In this document: positions 2,988 through 14,905 of the stretch, piece by piece | How the letters are laid out: the number at the start of each line of letters is the position of its first letter | Numbering within the stretch: the stretch's first letter is position 1 | Assembly (NCBI GenBank): GCA_017476665.1 | Contig: JAFUZJ010000022.1 | Location: forward strand, 1 to 59,742 | From: Lachnospiraceae bacterium | Lineage (GTDB): Bacteria; Bacillota; Clostridia; Lachnospirales; Lachnospiraceae | Direction of reading: 5' to 3' | DNA length: 59,742 nt | The notes under the pieces: model-generated | What the model was told of the DNA's origin: nothing | What the model saw: the letters and a program-made list of their open reading frames with translations, nothing else | Database searches by the model: none | Position numbers and translations under genes: made by a program

Positions 2988-3093
2988 CTAAATGAATTCT
3001 ACAAAAAATTTTTTGTAATTTAAAAAAATTTAAAGTTCTTTTTAGGTTCATCCTTTACAATGACCTCAGAACGAACGTAAAGGGGTGACAAGT

Positions 3094-3900
3094 ATGAGTT
3101 ATCAGGATATTTTCAAACGTTACGAAATGAAATATATGTTGACGAAGGAGCAAAAGGAACTGGTCCTTCAGGCAATGGCAGAATATATGAAGCCTGACGA
3201 ATTCGGCAGAAGCACGATCTGCAACATTTATTTTGATACGCCGGACTATCAGTTGATCAAGCGGTCGTTGGAGAAGCCGGTCTACAAAGAGAAGCTTCGG
3301 GTGAGAAGCTACGGCAAAGCCAAAGAGGACGGCACCGTATTTGTAGAACTGAAAAAGAAATATAAGGGTGTGGTTTACAAACGCCGCATCAGCACCAGTG
3401 AAAAAGAGGCAATGGCTTATCTGATTCAGGGTGAAGAACTCTCCAAGCAGAGCCAGATCACAGATGAGATCAGCTACTTCAAGCAGATGTACCAGGGGTT
3501 GCAGCCGGCAGTGTATCTCTCCTATGACAGAGAAGCGTTCTATGGCGTGGAGGACAGAGACCTGCGGATCACGTTCGATGAGAACATTCTATGGAGAAAA
3601 GAAGATATCAGCCTTTGCTCAGAAGTGTACGGAACGCCGATCCTGGAACCGGGATGTGCACTGATGGAGATCAAGATCGCTTCCGCAATGCCGATGTGGT
3701 TGTGCAGAGTGCTTTCGGAAAACGGAATTTTCCAGACCAGCTTTTCCAAATATGGCAGAGCTTATGAGACGATCGTGGCGGAGCAGATGGCGGCAGCAGC
3801 ACAGCGGATCGGCGGGACAGCAGGACAGACCGTGGCCGGTCAGGCAGCAGTGCAGAATGCAAACAGAAGACTGGGCGGGCGCCGTACCAGAATCGCATAA
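3094..3900 (+). CDS. VTC domain-containing protein (polyphosphate polymerase-like)
   Basis: The 268-residue protein has the VTC (PF09359) tunnel-domain motifs in order: KRYEMKY near the N-terminus, YFDTPDY, KLRVRSYG, VELKKKYKGVVYKRR, LSYDREAFYG, LRITFD, LMEIKI and SKYGRAY. In yeast Vtc4 the equivalent basic tunnel residues bind triphosphate and polyphosphate, so phosphate polymerisation or polyP binding is the family-based prediction. ATG 3094 is preferred over GTG 3085 because AAAGGGG (3079-3085) sits eight bases upstream. A -10-like TACAAT is at 3056-3061. It is the first gene of a set with a DUF4956 membrane protein 14 bases downstream. The final 30 residues are low-complexity. Confidence 0.88.
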   Translation: MSYQDIFKRYEMKYMLTKEQKELVLQAMAEYMKPDEFGRSTICNIYFDTPDYQLIKRSLEKPVYKEKLRVRSYGKAKEDGTVFVELKKKYKGVVYKRRISTSEKEAMAYLIQGEELSKQSQITDEISYFKQMYQGLQPAVYLSYDREAFYGVEDRDLRITFDENILWRKEDISLCSEVYGTPILEPGCALMEIKIASAMPMWLCRVLSENGIFQTSFSKYGRAYETIVAEQMAAAAQRIGGTAGQTVAGQAAVQNANRRLGGRRTRIA

Positions 3901-3914
3901 AGGAGGGATAAGTT

Positions 3915-4607
3915 ATGATGAATACATTGTTTGGAGGAATTTTTGATACAAGTACAACGAGTGTAATCTCGGTGAGCAGTTTCTTGCTGTGTGTGGCGGT
4001 TTCGCTGGTGATCGGGTTGTTTATATCGGCGGTTTTCGGCTATAAGAGTAAGTCCAGCCAGAGTTTTCTGGTGACGTTGGCGCTCCTGCCGGCAGTGGTG
4101 TGTGTGGTGATCATGATGGTAAACGGCAATGTGGGCGCGGGCGTGGCTGTAGCAGGTGCTTTCAGTCTGGTGCGTTTCCGTTCGGCTCCCGGTACGGCCA
4201 GAGAGATCGGGGCAATCTTCTTGGCAATGGCGTCGGGGCTGTTGACAGGAATGGGTTATCTGGGATACGCGGTGCTGTTTGCGGTGATCATCGGACTGGT
4301 GAATTTCCTGTATGAGAGCATCGGCTGGAAGAAAGCGGAAATGCAGACAGGGAAGACATTGCACATTACCATTCCGGAAAATCTGGATTATACAAATATT
4401 TTTGACGAGATCTTCAAAGAGTTCACAAAGAGCTGTGAGATGGTAAATGTGAAGACAACCAACATGGGAAGCCTGTTCAAACTGACCTATCAGGTGGAGT
4501 TGAAAGAGGACGTTTCGGAGAAGGATTTTATCGATAAACTGCGCTGCAGGAACGGTAATCTGGAGATCGTGATGGCGCGGAGAGAAACGGTGGTCGGAGA
4601 TCTGTAA
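3915..4607 (+). CDS. DUF4956 domain-containing membrane protein
   Basis: The 230-residue protein has an N-terminal half with about four hydrophobic spans (near residues 20-42, 50-68, 72-90 and 105-128) and a conserved G-A-F-S-L-V-R-F-R motif between spans. The C-terminal half is a soluble alpha/beta domain of about 90 residues. This is the DUF4956 layout. The family travels with VTC-domain and CotH/beta-helix genes in Clostridia, as here, and is thought to be the membrane partner of that set; biochemical function is unknown. An AAGGAGGG ribosome binding site lies seven or more bases before ATG 3915; ATG 3918 is an equivalent alternative. Confidence 0.88.
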   Translation: MMNTLFGGIFDTSTTSVISVSSFLLCVAVSLVIGLFISAVFGYKSKSSQSFLVTLALLPAVVCVVIMMVNGNVGAGVAVAGAFSLVRFRSAPGTAREIGAIFLAMASGLLTGMGYLGYAVLFAVIIGLVNFLYESIGWKKAEMQTGKTLHITIPENLDYTNIFDEIFKEFTKSCEMVNVKTTNMGSLFKLTYQVELKEDVSEKDFIDKLRCRNGNLEIVMARRETVVGDL

Positions 4608-4622
4608 AGGAGTGAGGATGTT

Positions 4623-6494
4623 ATGAAAAAGATGCAGATGAAGTGTAAAAACAGAAGATTTTATTACGGCGCACTGGCTGCTATACTGGCGGCGGGAATG
4701 CTGATGGCCGGTTGCGGAAACACAGCAAATACCGGTTCCGGGGCGAGCGGCGCTACGGCCAGCAGTACGGTGTCCGTGAGCAATACTGCAAAGAACAGTA
4801 GCAATGCGCAGGCAGTCGGCAGTTCTACTATTTTGGATACATCGGATCTGTTCAGCAACAGGGATGTAGAGGTGGGATATGATGAGTCGGAGTGCGTGAA
4901 GATCAGCCTGAACGGAAATACGGCGCAAAGCGATTCTCAGTCGGTGAAAGTGGACGGCAATGTGGTGACGATCACCGATGAAGGTACATACCTGATCTCG
5001 GGAACCTTAAACGGTCAGATTATCGTGGAAGCGGAAAAAAGCGACAAGGTGCAGCTGGTTTTGGACAATGCGAATATTTCTTGCGCGAGTAGTGCAGCGC
5101 TGTATGTGAGCCAGGCGGATAAGGTGTTTGTTACAACTGCGGCAGGCAGTGAAAATCTGCTGGAGACCACCGGCGCGTATGTGGCAATTGATGATCATAA
5201 TATTGACGGCGCAGTTTTTGCAAGAGATGACATCACGTTTAACGGCGAGGGAACATTGGTAGTGAAATCCACTGAGGGAAACGGTATTGTCTGTAAGGAT
5301 GATCTGAAGATTACCAGCGGTACCTATGAGATCACATCCGGCAATCATGGATTGCAGGGCAAGGACAGCATCCGGATTGCAAACGGTACCATTACGATCA
5401 CGGCAGCGCAGGACGGAATCCATTCCGGCAATGATGAAGACGATACGGTGGGTTACACCTATATTGAGGGCGGTACCATTACGATTGCGGCGGACGATGA
5501 CGGTATCCACTCCGATACCCAGCTTGTGATCGCAGGCGGCTCGATCAATATAACCAAGAGCTACGAAGGTTTGGAAGGGCAGGAGATTGAGATCCTGGGC
5601 GGCGAGATCAATGTGGTGTCCAGCGATGACGGTCTGAACGCGGCCAGCGGTAATAGCAACAGTGGCTCTAATGACTTCCAGATGCCGACGAGGGACGGCA
5701 ACTTCGGCGGCGGACGTCAGAATATGGATGGACAGGAAGGCTTTACTGGCGGAAGAGGCGGATTTGGAGGAGGCGGAGCGTTTGATGTGGACGAGGATGC
5801 GCAGATCATCATTTCCGGCGGTGTGCTACATGTAAATGCACAAGGAGACGGAATTGATTCCAACGGGAATCTGTATGTATATGGCGGCGAGATCATTGTC
5901 AACGGTCCGGTCAACGACGGAAACGGTGCATTGGACTTCGGCGGCAGCGGATACATTTACGGTGGCAGTGTGATCGCTATCGGCTCCAGCGGAATGGCAG
6001 AGAATTTTGCCTCTGATTCCACACAGTGTTCTATCATGGTGACAACCCAGAGCACGCAGAAGGCCGGGACAACGGTGACCCTGAAGGACGCGTCCGGGCA
6101 GGTGTTGTTGAGCGCTGTTTCGGAGAAAACATTTAACAATGTGGTATTCAGCTGTGGGGAGATTCGGGTTGGCGAAACCTATACTGTGGAGATCGGCAGC
6201 GAAACCATCGAGGTTACCATGACGGAAACAATCTATGGAAGCGGAAGCGGCTTTGGTGGCGGCAGAGGCGGCATGGGCGGTTTCGAAGGCGGACGCCCGG
6301 GGATGGACGGCCAGAATGGCTTTGAGGTGCCCAACGGCCAGAACGGCTTTGGCAGACCTGACGACCAGAATGGTTTTGGCGGACCGAACGGTATGGATGG
6401 ACAGAATGGTATGGGCGGCCAAGGAAACTTTGGCAGGCAAAAAGGCGGCAGAGGCGGCATGGACAGTTCCCGCGAATCGACTAATAATCTGTGA
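4623..6494 (+). CDS. Carbohydrate-binding beta-helix lipoprotein (Cthe_2159/DUF4353 family)
   Basis: The 623-residue product begins with a signal peptide and lipobox (LMAGC, near residue 31), so it should be lipid-anchored outside the cell. The body carries many short right-handed beta-helix repeats (I..G.I.I...DGI.S, G..I.ITSG..G), as in Cthe_2159, a family described as binding acidic polysaccharides. An acidic, glycine-rich insert lies near residues 345-390 and the last 85 residues are glycine/asparagine-rich repeats (GQNGF-type). It starts 15 bases after the DUF4956 gene and ends just before a strong terminator, so the three genes form one unit. No CotH kinase gene is present, which often accompanies this set. 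Confidence 0.85.
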   Translation: MKKMQMKCKNRRFYYGALAAILAAGMLMAGCGNTANTGSGASGATASSTVSVSNTAKNSSNAQAVGSSTILDTSDLFSNRDVEVGYDESECVKISLNGNTAQSDSQSVKVDGNVVTITDEGTYLISGTLNGQIIVEAEKSDKVQLVLDNANISCASSAALYVSQADKVFVTTAAGSENLLETTGAYVAIDDHNIDGAVFARDDITFNGEGTLVVKSTEGNGIVCKDDLKITSGTYEITSGNHGLQGKDSIRIANGTITITAAQDGIHSGNDEDDTVGYTYIEGGTITIAADDDGIHSDTQLVIAGGSINITKSYEGLEGQEIEILGGEINVVSSDDGLNAASGNSNSGSNDFQMPTRDGNFGGGRQNMDGQEGFTGGRGGFGGGGAFDVDEDAQIIISGGVLHVNAQGDGIDSNGNLYVYGGEIIVNGPVNDGNGALDFGGSGYIYGGSVIAIGSSGMAENFASDSTQCSIMVTTQSTQKAGTTVTLKDASGQVLLSAVSEKTFNNVVFSCGEIRVGETYTVEIGSETIEVTMTETIYGSGSGFGGGRGGMGGFEGGRPGMDGQNGFEVPNGQNGFGRPDDQNGFGGPNGMDGQNGMGGQGNFGRQKGGRGGMDSSRESTNNL

Positions 6495-6501
6495 GAAGAT
6501 T

Positions 6502-6532
6502 GGCGTCGGAAAGTAATTTCCGGCGCCTTTTT
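6502..6532 (+). terminator. Terminator of the VTC/DUF4956/beta-helix operon
   Basis: GGCGTCGGAAA (6502-6512) pairs with TTTCCGGCGCC (6517-6527) over 11 pairs including one G-U, with a GTAA loop and TTTTT after the right arm. Confidence 0.88.
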
Positions 6533-6615
6533 ATGCCGGAACCGCCTTGACTTTTGCCGGTCCATCATTTACGCTTAATTATACTGGGCAGAATGCTTCT
6601 GAAAGGAGCGGACAG

Positions 6616-9396
6616 GTGAGTATGGTAGTTGGTATTTTGGCACATGTGGATGCGGGTAAGACAACGTTGGCGGAATGTATGCTGCATTTGAGTGGGAAGC
6701 TGCGTCAGACCGGCAGGGTGGATCACGGGGATGCGTTTCTGGATCATTATGCATTGGAGCGGAAGCGTGGGATCACAATCTTTTCCAAGCAGGCACGGTT
6801 TACATGGAAAGATATGGAGATAACTCTGTTGGATACGCCGGGTCATGTGGATTTTGCTGCAGAGATGGAGCGGACGCTGGCAGTGCTTGATTGCGCCATA
6901 TTGGTGATAAACGGAACGGACGGAGTTCAGGCACACACAAGGACATTGTGGAAGCTTCTGGACTATTATGACGTTCCGGTTTTTGTGTTTGTGAATAAAA
7001 TGGATCAGCCGGGAAATGACCGGGTGCTGCTAATGGAGCAGTTGAAGCGCCAATTGAGCGGAAATTGTGTGTGCTTTTCTGCGGAGAATTCCGGGAAGGG
7101 TGTCTGTGAGGGAAGTGCCGCGTGGTTGGAGGAGGTTGCAACCTGTGAGGAGACGCTGATGAACCGGTATCTGGAAACCGGAGAACTGGGGGAGGAGCAG
7201 ATCGCGCAGGCAATTTGGGACAGGCAGGTTTTTCCGTGCTATTTCGGCGCAGCGCTGAAGGAAGAGGGGGTGGAGGCACTTCTTGACTCAATAGCGGTGT
7301 ATCGGAGGGCGTATCGGGCGGTCTGTCCGGCTGAGCAGGAGTATCCGGAGACGTTTGGTGCCAGGGTTTATCAGATCACCAGAGACAGCGCGGGAATGCG
7401 GCTCACGCACATTAAGGTTACGGGAGGAAAGCTGCGGGTAAAGCAGTTTTTGGATAACAAATTCAGTGCCCAGGGTGAGGATGAGGTGTTTTCGGAGAAA
7501 GCGGATCAGCTGCGGTTGTATAACGGGACAGAGTATGCGCTGGCGGAGGAAGTGAAGGCGGGCGAAATCTGTGCGGTGACCGGTCTGACAAAGACCTTTG
7601 TAGGACAGGGACTGGGATTTGAGACGGAGAATGAGAAACCGTTGTTAGAGCCGGTGTTGACATACCGGATCGAACTGCCGGAGGGCGAGGATGCAGTGCG
7701 GGTGCTCGGTTTGTTTCGGCAGCTGGAGGAGGAAGAACCGCTCCTGCACATTCTGTGGCAGGAGGCGACGAAGGAAATTCATGCGCAGATCATGGGAGAG
7801 GTGCAGATAGAGATTTTGCAGGAGTTGATCGCGGAACGGTTTGGGCTGGAGGTTACATTCGGCGAGGGAAGTATCGTTTATAAGGAGACACTGGCAAAGC
7901 CGGTGATCGGGGTCGGCCATTTTGAACCGCTCCGGCATTATGCGGAGGTGGAACTCCTGTTGGAGCCCGGGGAACCCGGCAGCGGCATGCAGTTTGCCAG
8001 TGTGTGCAGTGAGGATGGGTTGGATCGGAACTGGCAGCGGTTGATCCTGACCCATCTGGAGGAGCGGCCGCATGTCGGGGTGCTTACAGGAGCGCCGGTG
8101 ACGGATCTGCGGATCCTGTTGGTGGCGGGGAGAGCCCACGCCAAACATACCGAGGGCGGTGATTTCAGGCAGGCGACCTACCGGGCAGTCCGACAGGGCT
8201 TGCGCAGCGGGGAGTGTGTTTTGCTGGAGCCCATGTTTTCTTTTGTTCTGGAACTTCCCACAGAGTATCTGGGACGGGCCATGTCGGATGTGCAGCGGAT
8301 GTACGGCAGTTTTGAGACGCCGGTGACGGAGGGGGACCGGAGCATACTCAGGGGTCGGGCACCGGTGGCGACCATGCGGGACTATCAGCGGGAGGTGGCT
8401 GCGTATACCCATGGAACAGGCCACTTTGCCTGCACGCCGGACGGATATGCACCCTGTCACAACGCGGAGGAAGTGATCGCTCATCAGGGGTACGATCCCG
8501 AGGCGGATGTGGCAAACCCGACGGGATCGGTGTTTTGCGCTCACGGGGCAGGATTTATTGTGGATTGGGATCAGGTGCCGGAATATGCCCATGTGGAGGT
8601 CCCGGCAGATATTAAGGCGCTTGTGGAACAGGCAGGGCGTGAGGAGCAGGGGAAGCAGGGATCGGTGGACGGATCAGGAGAGCAGAGGGAATCTGCAGGG
8701 CGATGCGGAGGACATGCGCAGGGCGGCACGGAGCACTATATCACCCAGGAGGAGATCGAGCAGATTTTCGCGCAGACCTACGGCAAAAGGGAGAAGGATG
8801 CAAGACACCGCAGGCGGTATCATGTGACAAGGCGGGACAGCAGAATGGGGGCTGCGGGTGGTCAGGCTGGCGGATATGGCGATGGTTCGGGCAACTCAAG
8901 CAGATTGAGCAGTAGTGCAAAATCAGGAGCGGCGAAGAAGTCCTGTCTGTTGGTAGACGGCTATAATATCATTTTTGCGTGGGACGAGCTGCGGGCGCTC
9001 TCGGAAGTCAATATTGACAGTGCCAGGGACAGGCTGATGGATATTCTGAGTAATTATCAGGGAACACTGGGAGGAGAACTGATTTTGGTGTTTGACGCCT
9101 ACAAGGGAAAAGGCAATCCGGGCAGTACCCTGAAGTATCACAATATCTATGTGGTTTATACCAGAGAAGCAGAGACGGCGGATCAATATATTGAGAAGAC
9201 AGTGCATGAGATGGCGGATCAATATCAGATCACGGTGGCAACGTCAGATCGTTTGGAGCAGATGATCATTTGGGGCGATGGCGCGATGCGGATGTCGGCA
9301 AGGGGCTTGTATGAGGCGGTTGAGAATGCTGCAAAAGAGCTGCGGGAAAACTATACGGAGCAGGACAGCAGGATTGCGTTCAGACCTTTTTTGTGA
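6616..9396 (+). CDS. TetM/EF-G-like ribosomal GTPase fused to a YacP/Rae1-type NYN nuclease domain
   Basis: The 926-residue protein starts with a translational GTPase domain: G1 AHVDAGKT, G2 RGIT, G3 DTPGH, G4 NKMD and a G5-like SAEN, followed by EF-G domain II-V-type sequence resembling TetM/TetW ribosome protection proteins. A low-complexity linker (about 650-770) leads to a C-terminal NYN/PIN-like domain (about 774-926) with LLVDGYN, SARDRL, LVFDAYK and ETADQYI, including the acidic residues expected for metal-dependent RNA cleavage. In Bacillus subtilis, Rae1 (YacP) is known to cut mRNA in the ribosomal A site. GTG 6616 is chosen because AAAGGAG (6602-6608) lies seven bases upstream; ATG 6622 is the alternative. 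A true tetracycline-resistance role is not shown; ribosome-associated mRNA quality control is a reasonable alternative. Confidence 0.88.
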   Translation: MSMVVGILAHVDAGKTTLAECMLHLSGKLRQTGRVDHGDAFLDHYALERKRGITIFSKQARFTWKDMEITLLDTPGHVDFAAEMERTLAVLDCAILVINGTDGVQAHTRTLWKLLDYYDVPVFVFVNKMDQPGNDRVLLMEQLKRQLSGNCVCFSAENSGKGVCEGSAAWLEEVATCEETLMNRYLETGELGEEQIAQAIWDRQVFPCYFGAALKEEGVEALLDSIAVYRRAYRAVCPAEQEYPETFGARVYQITRDSAGMRLTHIKVTGGKLRVKQFLDNKFSAQGEDEVFSEKADQLRLYNGTEYALAEEVKAGEICAVTGLTKTFVGQGLGFETENEKPLLEPVLTYRIELPEGEDAVRVLGLFRQLEEEEPLLHILWQEATKEIHAQIMGEVQIEILQELIAERFGLEVTFGEGSIVYKETLAKPVIGVGHFEPLRHYAEVELLLEPGEPGSGMQFASVCSEDGLDRNWQRLILTHLEERPHVGVLTGAPVTDLRILLVAGRAHAKHTEGGDFRQATYRAVRQGLRSGECVLLEPMFSFVLELPTEYLGRAMSDVQRMYGSFETPVTEGDRSILRGRAPVATMRDYQREVAAYTHGTGHFACTPDGYAPCHNAEEVIAHQGYDPEADVANPTGSVFCAHGAGFIVDWDQVPEYAHVEVPADIKALVEQAGREEQGKQGSVDGSGEQRESAGRCGGHAQGGTEHYITQEEIEQIFAQTYGKREKDARHRRRYHVTRRDSRMGAAGGQAGGYGDGSGNSSRLSSSAKSGAAKKSCLLVDGYNIIFAWDELRALSEVNIDSARDRLMDILSNYQGTLGGELILVFDAYKGKGNPGSTLKYHNIYVVYTREAETADQYIEKTVHEMADQYQITVATSDRLEQMIIWGDGAMRMSARGLYEAVENAAKELRENYTEQDSRIAFRPFL

Positions 9397-13366: not shown

Positions 13367-14905
13367 ATGAAGAAATATCTTTTGTTTGATCTGGATGGCA
13401 CGCTGACGGATCCGAAGGTCGGCATTACAACTTGTGTGCAGTATGCACTGGCATCTTTTGGCATCGAGGAGCCTGACCTGGACAAACTGACTCCGTTTAT
13501 CGGACCGCCCCTTCGTGACAGTTTTATGCGGTTTTATGATTTTGATGAGGAGCAGGCCAAGAAAGCGGTTGCAAAGTACAGAGAACGCTTTCAGGATGTG
13601 GGCATATTTGAAAATGAGGTGTATGAGGGGATTCCACATATGCTGCGGACACTGCAGTCCAAAGGGCTTTATCTGGCGGTGGCGTCTTCCAAGCCGCAGG
13701 TATATGTGGAGCGCATTTTGGAGCATTTTGACCTGAAAAAATACTTTAAGGTGATCGTGGGCAGCGAGTTGGACGGAACCAGAGAGAGTAAGGATGAGGT
13801 GGTGCAGGAAGCGCTGAACCGCCTTTTTGCGTATAAACCGATCCAACGGGATCAGGTGTATATGATCGGTGACAGATGCTTTGACATTGAAGGCGCGAAG
13901 GCGCAGAAGGTGGAAAGTGTAGGGGTCACTTACGGTTTCGGAGACATGGAAGAGTTGAAGGCTGCCAAGGCGGATTATATTGTGCGCAGTGTGGCGGAAC
14001 TGGAGAAGTTTCTGCTGCGCGGCGTGGAGGAGGAAAGGCAGGCAGAGACGAAGAAAAAGGGTTTGACCCTGGGCAATATGTGGGTAATGCTTTTTTCTTT
14101 CCTGATCTTTATGGGCGTGCGCAGCGTGGTCATGTATGCGGTGGAACTGCTCTGTGTACAGATGTGGAATTGGAATCTGCCGGAATGGCTGGATCGTTTT
14201 TTGTTTGCGCGGGATGCGGCGCTGGCGGACGGCGCACAGTTTGCATTTACGGGAAACCAGAGCGTGCTTCGGTCGGCGCTGGGATTTGTGGGTGGGGCGT
14301 TAGCCGTCAGAAAGGATGCGGTGGAGCTGATCCGGGAGACGGCAGAGGATACGAAGCTTGCGCATCTGCGGAAAGAAGAGAGGGTGAATTATCTGCTTCT
14401 GGCGGGCGCCGTGGTCGGCGCGGCTGTGGGGTTGAATCTGTTGTTAGACCTGATGGGATTGGTGGATAAGTCTGAGGCCTATCAGGCGGTGAGAGCGGAT
14501 CAGTATTCTGCGAATTTCTTTCTGGGTTTACTTGCCTTCGGGATCTTATCTCCTACGGCGGAGGAATTATTATTCCGTGGGATCCTTCACAATTATCTGC
14601 GGAAATTTTATCCGGTGCGGCTGACGTTGTTGGTATCGTCGGCGCTGTTTGGGCTGTATCATATGAATTTTGTACAGGGAATGTATGGCTTTTTGATGGG
14701 CTGCCTGATCGCGTACGGGTATGAATTTTTCGGAGATTTTAGAGTGGCATTGGCGGCGCATGCAGGGGCGAATATTCTGGTGTATTGTTTGTCCTATACG
14801 GCTTTAGCGGGTACGGCGTTTGTGAGCTGGCCGGTGTGTCTGCTCTTTGGGGCGTTGGCGGTGGTCTGCCTGCGGATTCTGAGTAAGAAGAAAGATGTGT
14901 TATAA
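13367..14905 (+). CDS. HAD phosphatase fused to a CPBP-type intramembrane protease
   Basis: Residues 1-220 are a HAD hydrolase of the phosphoglycolate phosphatase type: DLDGTLTD (nucleophile Asp), ASSKP, a later Lys and IGDRCFDIEGA. Residues 235-512 are polytopic and carry CPBP/Rce1-like motifs EELLFRG (the EExxxR motif), FGLYHMN and HAGAN, which form the presumed metal site in the membrane. No stop or shift separates the halves. HAD and CPBP proteins are normally separate, so this is an unusual fusion; what links a soluble phosphatase to an intramembrane protease is unknown. It lies within the envelope gene string, three bases before the GT2 gene. Confidence 0.85.
   Translation: MKKYLLFDLDGTLTDPKVGITTCVQYALASFGIEEPDLDKLTPFIGPPLRDSFMRFYDFDEEQAKKAVAKYRERFQDVGIFENEVYEGIPHMLRTLQSKGLYLAVASSKPQVYVERILEHFDLKKYFKVIVGSELDGTRESKDEVVQEALNRLFAYKPIQRDQVYMIGDRCFDIEGAKAQKVESVGVTYGFGDMEELKAAKADYIVRSVAELEKFLLRGVEEERQAETKKKGLTLGNMWVMLFSFLIFMGVRSVVMYAVELLCVQMWNWNLPEWLDRFLFARDAALADGAQFAFTGNQSVLRSALGFVGGALAVRKDAVELIRETAEDTKLAHLRKEERVNYLLLAGAVVGAAVGLNLLLDLMGLVDKSEAYQAVRADQYSANFFLGLLAFGILSPTAEELLFRGILHNYLRKFYPVRLTLLVSSALFGLYHMNFVQGMYGFLMGCLIAYGYEFFGDFRVALAAHAGANILVYCLSYTALAGTAFVSWPVCLLFGALAVVCLRILSKKKDVL

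Follow-up and report, generated by a model that had tools for sequence, protein, structure and literature searches.

The ribonuclease (RNase) Rae1 of Bacillus subtilis, also named YacP, cuts messenger RNA (mRNA) in the aminoacyl (A) site of the ribosome (PMC12320835, PMC6613710). The protein stands alone, and its gene is co-transcribed with yacO (rlmB) (PMC6613710). The ribosome-protection protein TetM places its domain IV in the A site (PMC8161019). Atkinson (2015; PMC4342817) described Tet proteins from ten Clostridiales that carry YacP-like NYN domains, and suggested an RNase mode of resistance. Here we analyse a gene with the same domain order, a Tet-like translational GTPase followed by an acquired YacP-like NYN RNase, which lies at 6616..9396 in 59,742 nucleotides of DNA from a Lachnospiraceae bacterium (assembly GCA_017476665.1, contig JAFUZJ010000022.1). 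This whole stretch is called the window below; the gene and its features lie on the forward strand. We consider it somewhat better than an even bet, with a probability of roughly 0.55, that the fusion is the Rae1 of this bacterium, i.e., a metal-dependent endonuclease that would cut the A-site mRNA of paused ribosomes and would be carried by a dedicated GTPase of the elongation factor G (EF-G) family. The fusion is probably a ribosome quality-control factor and not a tetracycline-resistance protein.

The frame is open for 926 codons (926 amino acids), starts with GTG and ends with TGA. Its N-terminal part has the domains of EF-G and intact G motifs, and by Pfam, alignments and fold comparison it is an EF-G-family translational GTPase. 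It consists of a GTPase domain (residues 4-227, 6625..7296; GTP_EFTU, 2.5e-51) with the conserved motifs AHVDAGKTT, DTPGHVDF and NKMD, domains III and IV (residues 345-531, 7648..8208; EFG_III at 345-416 and EFG_IV at 419-531) and domain V (residues 535-616, 8218..8463; EFG_C). All listed Pfam domains of the fusion exceed the gathering threshold; domain II has no Pfam match, yet it lies inside the fold alignment, whose listed rows run from model residue 1 to about 655 and thus cover the GTPase part. Residues 776-926 (8941..9393) form a nuclease domain of the NYN_YacP/Rae1 type. The NYN_YacP match (residues 778-918, 1.9e-46) reached 158.6 bits at a cut-off of 24.6, and the NYN part matches the B. 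subtilis YacP/Rae1 structure 5mq8 with an E value of 4.7e-25. In the AlphaFold2 model the predicted local distance difference test score (pLDDT) is mostly above 70 for both the GTPase part (1-684) and the NYN part (about 772-914). The initial annotation, made from the sequence letters, had described a complete EF-G-like factor with a C-terminal NYN domain carrying every acidic residue, and Pfam, alignment and model confirm this description.

The acidic residues of the NYN domain, D781, D827, D856, E860 and D878, were placed by alignment, and we take them to be catalytic. As in the window protein, the NYN_YacP domain of B. subtilis Rae1 (5mq8, 5mq9) has all of them. Conservation was counted without filtering in 121 fused proteins, of which 41 (the window protein included) came from NYN-positive genomes and 80 from a separate genome collection. 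Five of the 41 profile-found fusions were located via a GTPase search or in regions chosen after that search; the 80 are the best of 595 loci found via KHTEGGDF or VD[AS]GKTTL[SA], ranked by how well they match the entire fusion. D781, D827 and D856 are kept in 121/121 proteins; 119 proteins keep E860 and 120 keep D878, the exceptions being a protein truncated in this region (L068) and one with threonine at position 860 (L129). All five residues are constant in 26/26 free-standing NYN proteins. Positions conserved in the fused NYN domains are mostly conserved in the free ones too, except Arg892 (26/26 free, 76/121 fused). A lack of conservation of the nuclease residues among homologues had been named at the outset as an observation that would refute the initial reading; the residues turned out to be conserved, the three aspartates without exception.

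The fusion is common in clostridia and not an isolated oddity. In Lachnospiraceae, NYN_YacP was found in 180 of 200 genomes, with a single match in 175 of these 180. Among the genomes with matches listed, about 149 (counted by hand), 136 carry the domain in frames of at least 516 codons and 13 in frames of at most 271; three of the 13 (G042, G095 and G128) may be broken or contig-edge fusions. In the class Clostridia the domain was present in 128 of 196 genomes, which by frame length divide into 68 fused, 58 free and two partial. Long fused frames in 68/196 genomes of the class, together with fusion at 80/80 loci of the separate collection (the best of 595, selected on the entire fusion), make chance or an assembly artefact unlikely. 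Outside the class, the phylum sample held nine genomes with a long fused frame (199 searched, 109 with NYN).

A phyletic survey of the fusion against stand-alone yacP had been proposed with the initial annotation; in such a survey the fusion takes the place of free rae1. None of the 196 Clostridia genomes has fused and free NYN copies together above the family cut-off; in G334 an extra match of 21 bits stays under it. In the genome of the window the fusion is the sole NYN_YacP match, and the gap between rlmB and sigH measures 15 nucleotides and holds no yacP. Among the free-NYN genomes examined, yacP adjoins rlmB in six of seven (the exception is G059). Among the seven fused genomes examined, the window's own included, rlmB is followed by sigH after 13-55 nucleotides with nothing in between in five; the remaining two showed no sigH adjoining rlmB. 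For G099 and G288 the rlmB context was judged from coordinates, the pattern search having missed rlmB in the former and all genes in the latter. We infer from the sequences that the nuclease moved from the rlmB-adjacent slot onto the GTPase. The window protein lacks a Rae1/YacP trait, that of a free-standing protein of about 170 amino acids beside rlmB: unlike B. subtilis Rae1, its NYN domain is fused and lies elsewhere in the genome.

The GTPase had initially been called TetM-like. This is correct for the fold and does not hold beyond it. Against the NCBIfam family tet_protect the GTPase scored 414.4 bits at a cut-off of 775, and against the EF-G family TIGR00484 it scored 294.4 bits at a cut-off of 659.4; among the families listed, 25 of 36, there was no EF-G cut-off that it reached. 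Identity to Tet(M) and Tet(W) is 27-29% (27.5% to Tet(M)). With EF-G the protein has the fold and the GTPase motifs in common, and its genome contains a separate 724-codon frame, EF-G-like as judged by alignment, to which the window GTPase is 27% identical.

The loops of domain IV differ from those of Tet proteins. In loop III (GRAHxKHTEGGDFRxATYRAVRQGL, residues 505-529, 8128..8202) the annotated Tet(M) has SPVSTPADFR, beginning at residue 508, where the window protein and the majority of its subfamily have xKHTEGGDFR. Lys510 of the window protein thereby falls into the column of Pro509, in which Tet(M), Tet(W) and the canonical Tet gene L082 have proline; Pro509 of TetM lies within the tetracycline site, in contact with C1054 (PMC8161019). 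The loop I region (GHFEPLRHYAEVEL, residues 434-447, 7915..7956) also differs from Tet: GHFEPLRHYAEV. In an alignment from which the search pattern had lost several rows, this region is common to relatives that consist of the GTPase only and is different in Tet and EF-G. Most positions of loops I and III are at least 90% conserved in the 41 profile-found fusions, which were used for loop III since the 80-locus set had been preselected by KHTEGGDF or VD[AS]GKTTL[SA].

Domain V is followed by an extension with the pattern GYxxCHN...YDxxxD...SVFCxHGxGF...W...MH (residues 610-659, 8443..8592). Its cysteines Cys614 and Cys641 are both present in 118/118 rows of an alignment for which the pattern preselected D781 and dropped three of the 41 fusions; among the dropped ones, L114 has phenylalanine at 641 and L129 has no alignable extension. 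The extension also occurs in the GTPase-only relatives and is absent from the Tet and EF-G rows. No Pfam match was found for residues 601-777.

The GTPase tree has 49 rows, among them 26 fusions and 15 GTPase-only relatives, which form sister clades with supports of 98/96 and 98/95, respectively. A branch of length 1.81 (100/99) leads to both clades and separates them from Tet(M), Tet(W) and one further Tet row. L242 and five of the 24 fusion loci chosen for this tree (L045, L060, L113, L114 and L129) are not in it, so that the two most divergent fusions are left out. The tree fits a single origin of the fusion. Judged by three tests on the sequence, namely the cut-off, the tree and the domain IV loop, the GTPase does not belong to the Tet proteins; its reading as a tetracycline ribosome-protection protein is not supported.

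The GTPase-only relatives are exemplified by a protein of plasmid pMP118 of Ligilactobacillus salivarius UCC118, which is not in the tree. It is 45-47% identical to the fusion GTPase, has loop I and the Cys extension as in the fusion and lacks the NYN domain. Its loop III reads HTVGGDFR with valine in the column of Lys510, whereas the clostridial GTPase-only rows listed read KHTxGGDFR. The locus (L242, pMP118 223564-231450) is annotated as tetracycline resistance and adjoins an rpsN copy carried by the plasmid as well as a small gene with a putative role in metal homeostasis; these neighbours and the conserved cysteines hint at a link to zinc. L. salivarius L33 is reported to be tetracycline-intermediate and has tet(M) and tet(L) according to amrfinder (PMC12502609); as this tet(M) call may be the GTPase-only gene, the strain decides nothing for the present question. 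On a 252-kb plasmid of Agathobacter rectalis (L244, 20809-31541) we observed a fusion-like relative with 84% of the query covered at 55% identity, the annotation of which as a TetM/TetW/TetO/TetS-type resistance protein is likely a misannotation. An altered-loop fusion (L129, genome G178, 5674-8460) occurs in the same genome as the canonical Tet gene L082.

The two parts of the fusion are joined by a linker (residues 662-775, 8599..8940) that is mostly disordered according to the AlphaFold2 model, with a pLDDT below 50 at 685-709 and 723-770 and helices modelled at 664-681 and 711-722. The latter helix, of low confidence in the model, contains a short conserved sequence, EIEQIFAQTY (residues 713-722, 8752..8781). 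A pattern for it is found in 33/41 profile-found fusions and 92/121 overall, compared with 0.3% when the linkers of the 41 are shuffled. Its commonest form is E[LI]xxI[FI]x[RK]T[YF]; the scored pattern is looser and was drawn from the consensus, so that the count is descriptive. The helix may be a docking element.

Like that of TetM, domain IV of EF-G enters the A site. Since a domain IV of the TetM type cannot share this site with a nuclease of the Rae1 type at the same moment, we propose a hand-over between the two, and the long linker suggests the same. The GTP-bound factor would take the position of EF-G and TetM on a stalled ribosome whose A site is empty, and the tip of domain IV, rich in histidine, lysine and arginine, would probe the decoding centre. 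GTP hydrolysis would withdraw domain IV, whereupon the NYN domain, tethered by the flexible linker of about 110 residues, could enter the vacated A site and cut the message. Transfer-messenger RNA (tmRNA), which is present in the genome of the window, would then rescue the ribosome and clear the cut message. Ribosome binding, delivery to ribosomes, metal use, cleavage, the order of events and the control by GTP are what we infer for the fusion. A nuclease gated by GTP in this manner, in which domain IV detects that the A site is stalled and empty and hydrolysis then opens it to the protein's own nuclease, as the standing Rae1 system of a large part of the gut clostridia, is a tentative proposal to which we give clearly less credence than to the Rae1 assignment itself.

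Several observations weigh against so tight a coupling. On the NYN tree two label changes are required, not one, and the tree contains long branches; one of its rows inside the fused part, L033, is only 19% filled. In the divergent fusions L114 and L129 the loops of domain IV are altered while D781, D827 and D856 are retained, so the two halves can decay separately. The NYN profile match of the window protein ends at position 143 of 166, its final 20 residues or so not being recognisable; consequently, the region of Rae1 R166P, a loss-of-function mutation that maps to the C-terminal tail (PMC6613710), cannot be recognised in it. Many other fusions extend to profile position 164-166, and the short ending recurs in L162 and L179, the two nearest relatives of the window protein among the best 80 of 595 loci. 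Furthermore, 53 of the 58 Clostridia genomes with a free NYN domain are without this GTPase subfamily, from which it follows that free-standing Rae1 works without the GTPase, and six of the 80 genomes with the GTPase subfamily have no NYN match (in one, G329, the gene lies at a contig edge). With fused and partial genomes left out, GTPase-only genes and free NYN domains are not associated at the class level (5/11 vs 53/115, p 1.0). In a family sample, GTPase-only genes occurred in 6/10 free-NYN genomes and 0/20 genomes without NYN (p 0.0004), the sample comprising 45 hand-picked, related genomes and p carrying no correction for kinship. Among the six GTPases, that of G099 contains an internal stop; a seventh gene, the Tet-like one of G068, groups elsewhere and was excluded. 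As the free forms do not co-occur beyond chance at the class level, the initial idea of one inseparable machine is weakened. One genome (G319) was seen to hold two GTPase-only copies (L252, L253) and a free-standing NYN protein.

These observations have to be weighed between the proposed Rae1 carried by a dedicated GTPase and three other explanations. The protein could be an ordinary Rae1 attached to a separate translation factor, the fusion providing ribosome proximity or equal amounts of both without mechanistic coupling. The long, mostly disordered linker would suit such tethering, as would the free NYN domains without the GTPase, the GTPases without NYN and the absence of a class-level association outside the fusion. 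Nevertheless, a single fused GTPase clade is kept across many families with no free copy alongside, and a short helix is conserved inside an otherwise variable linker, so that tethering alone appears to us rather unlikely, if the most serious of the three. Alternatively, the nuclease might act on ribosomal or transfer RNA, in maturation or by cleaving A-site transfer RNA or the ribosomal RNA of the decoding centre. A maturation role for NYN domains is an older proposal cited in PMC4342817, and domain IV would bring the protein to the decoding centre; against this stand the A-site mRNA cleavage by the studied YacP relative Rae1 and the conserved NYN residues, which are largely common to fused and free forms. 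We regard such targets as improbable.

Even less probable, in our estimation, is the suggestion of Atkinson (2015), by which the protein would protect ribosomes from tetracycline and the RNase would add a further mode of resistance. It is so named in print and in some public annotations, and it has the fold of TetM, but its score lies far below the tet_protect cut-off, its clade is outside Tet and it has lysine at the C1054-contacting Pro509. Moreover, its spread resembles that of a core gene, the NYN domain of the 180 family genomes being mostly fused among the matches listed. According to an older survey, Tet genes are present in just 20 of 191 genomes (PMC1780047). Regulation by a tetracycline-type leader was considered and rejected; a terminator-like hairpin, the sole element looked for upstream, was found, and no leader comparison was made.

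This hairpin (6502..6527; one found in a consensus scan where 0.2 were expected) belongs to the upstream gene and separates the fusion from it, and a ribosome-binding site, AAAGGAG, can be read at 6602..6608, 5' of the GTG at 6616. Just upstream (3085-6494) a VTC-domain protein, a DUF4956 protein and a Cthe_2159 carbohydrate-binding protein are encoded in a row, and at 13367-14905 a HAD hydrolase (PF13419) and a CAAX-protease-like domain (PF02517) share a single frame. A function as operon partner was rejected, there being no conserved neighbours among 35 fusions, as was a defence system, for which none of the PADLOC-DB families matched. Only two plasmid and two phage-collection records hold a place covering at least 80% of the fusion.

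The fusions of Atkinson (2015) were classed as Tet, whereas here the GTPase falls outside Tet and the fusion is widespread and replaces free rae1. We found no other paper on the pairing of this GTPase with NYN in the accessible parts of the open-access literature; Condon 2018, by its title a distribution survey, may mention the fusion. As far as these sources go, both the separation of the GTPase from Tet and the replacement of free rae1 are apparently new in print. The fusion makes possible a clean test of whether a translational GTPase controls Rae1-type cleavage. If the proposed assignment is true, some genes annotated as tetracycline resistance would be housekeeping factors, which bears on resistome counts and on the safety files of probiotics, and many clostridia, including most sampled Lachnospiraceae genera among the matches listed, would run their A-site mRNA surveillance via an uncharacterised GTPase-nuclease.
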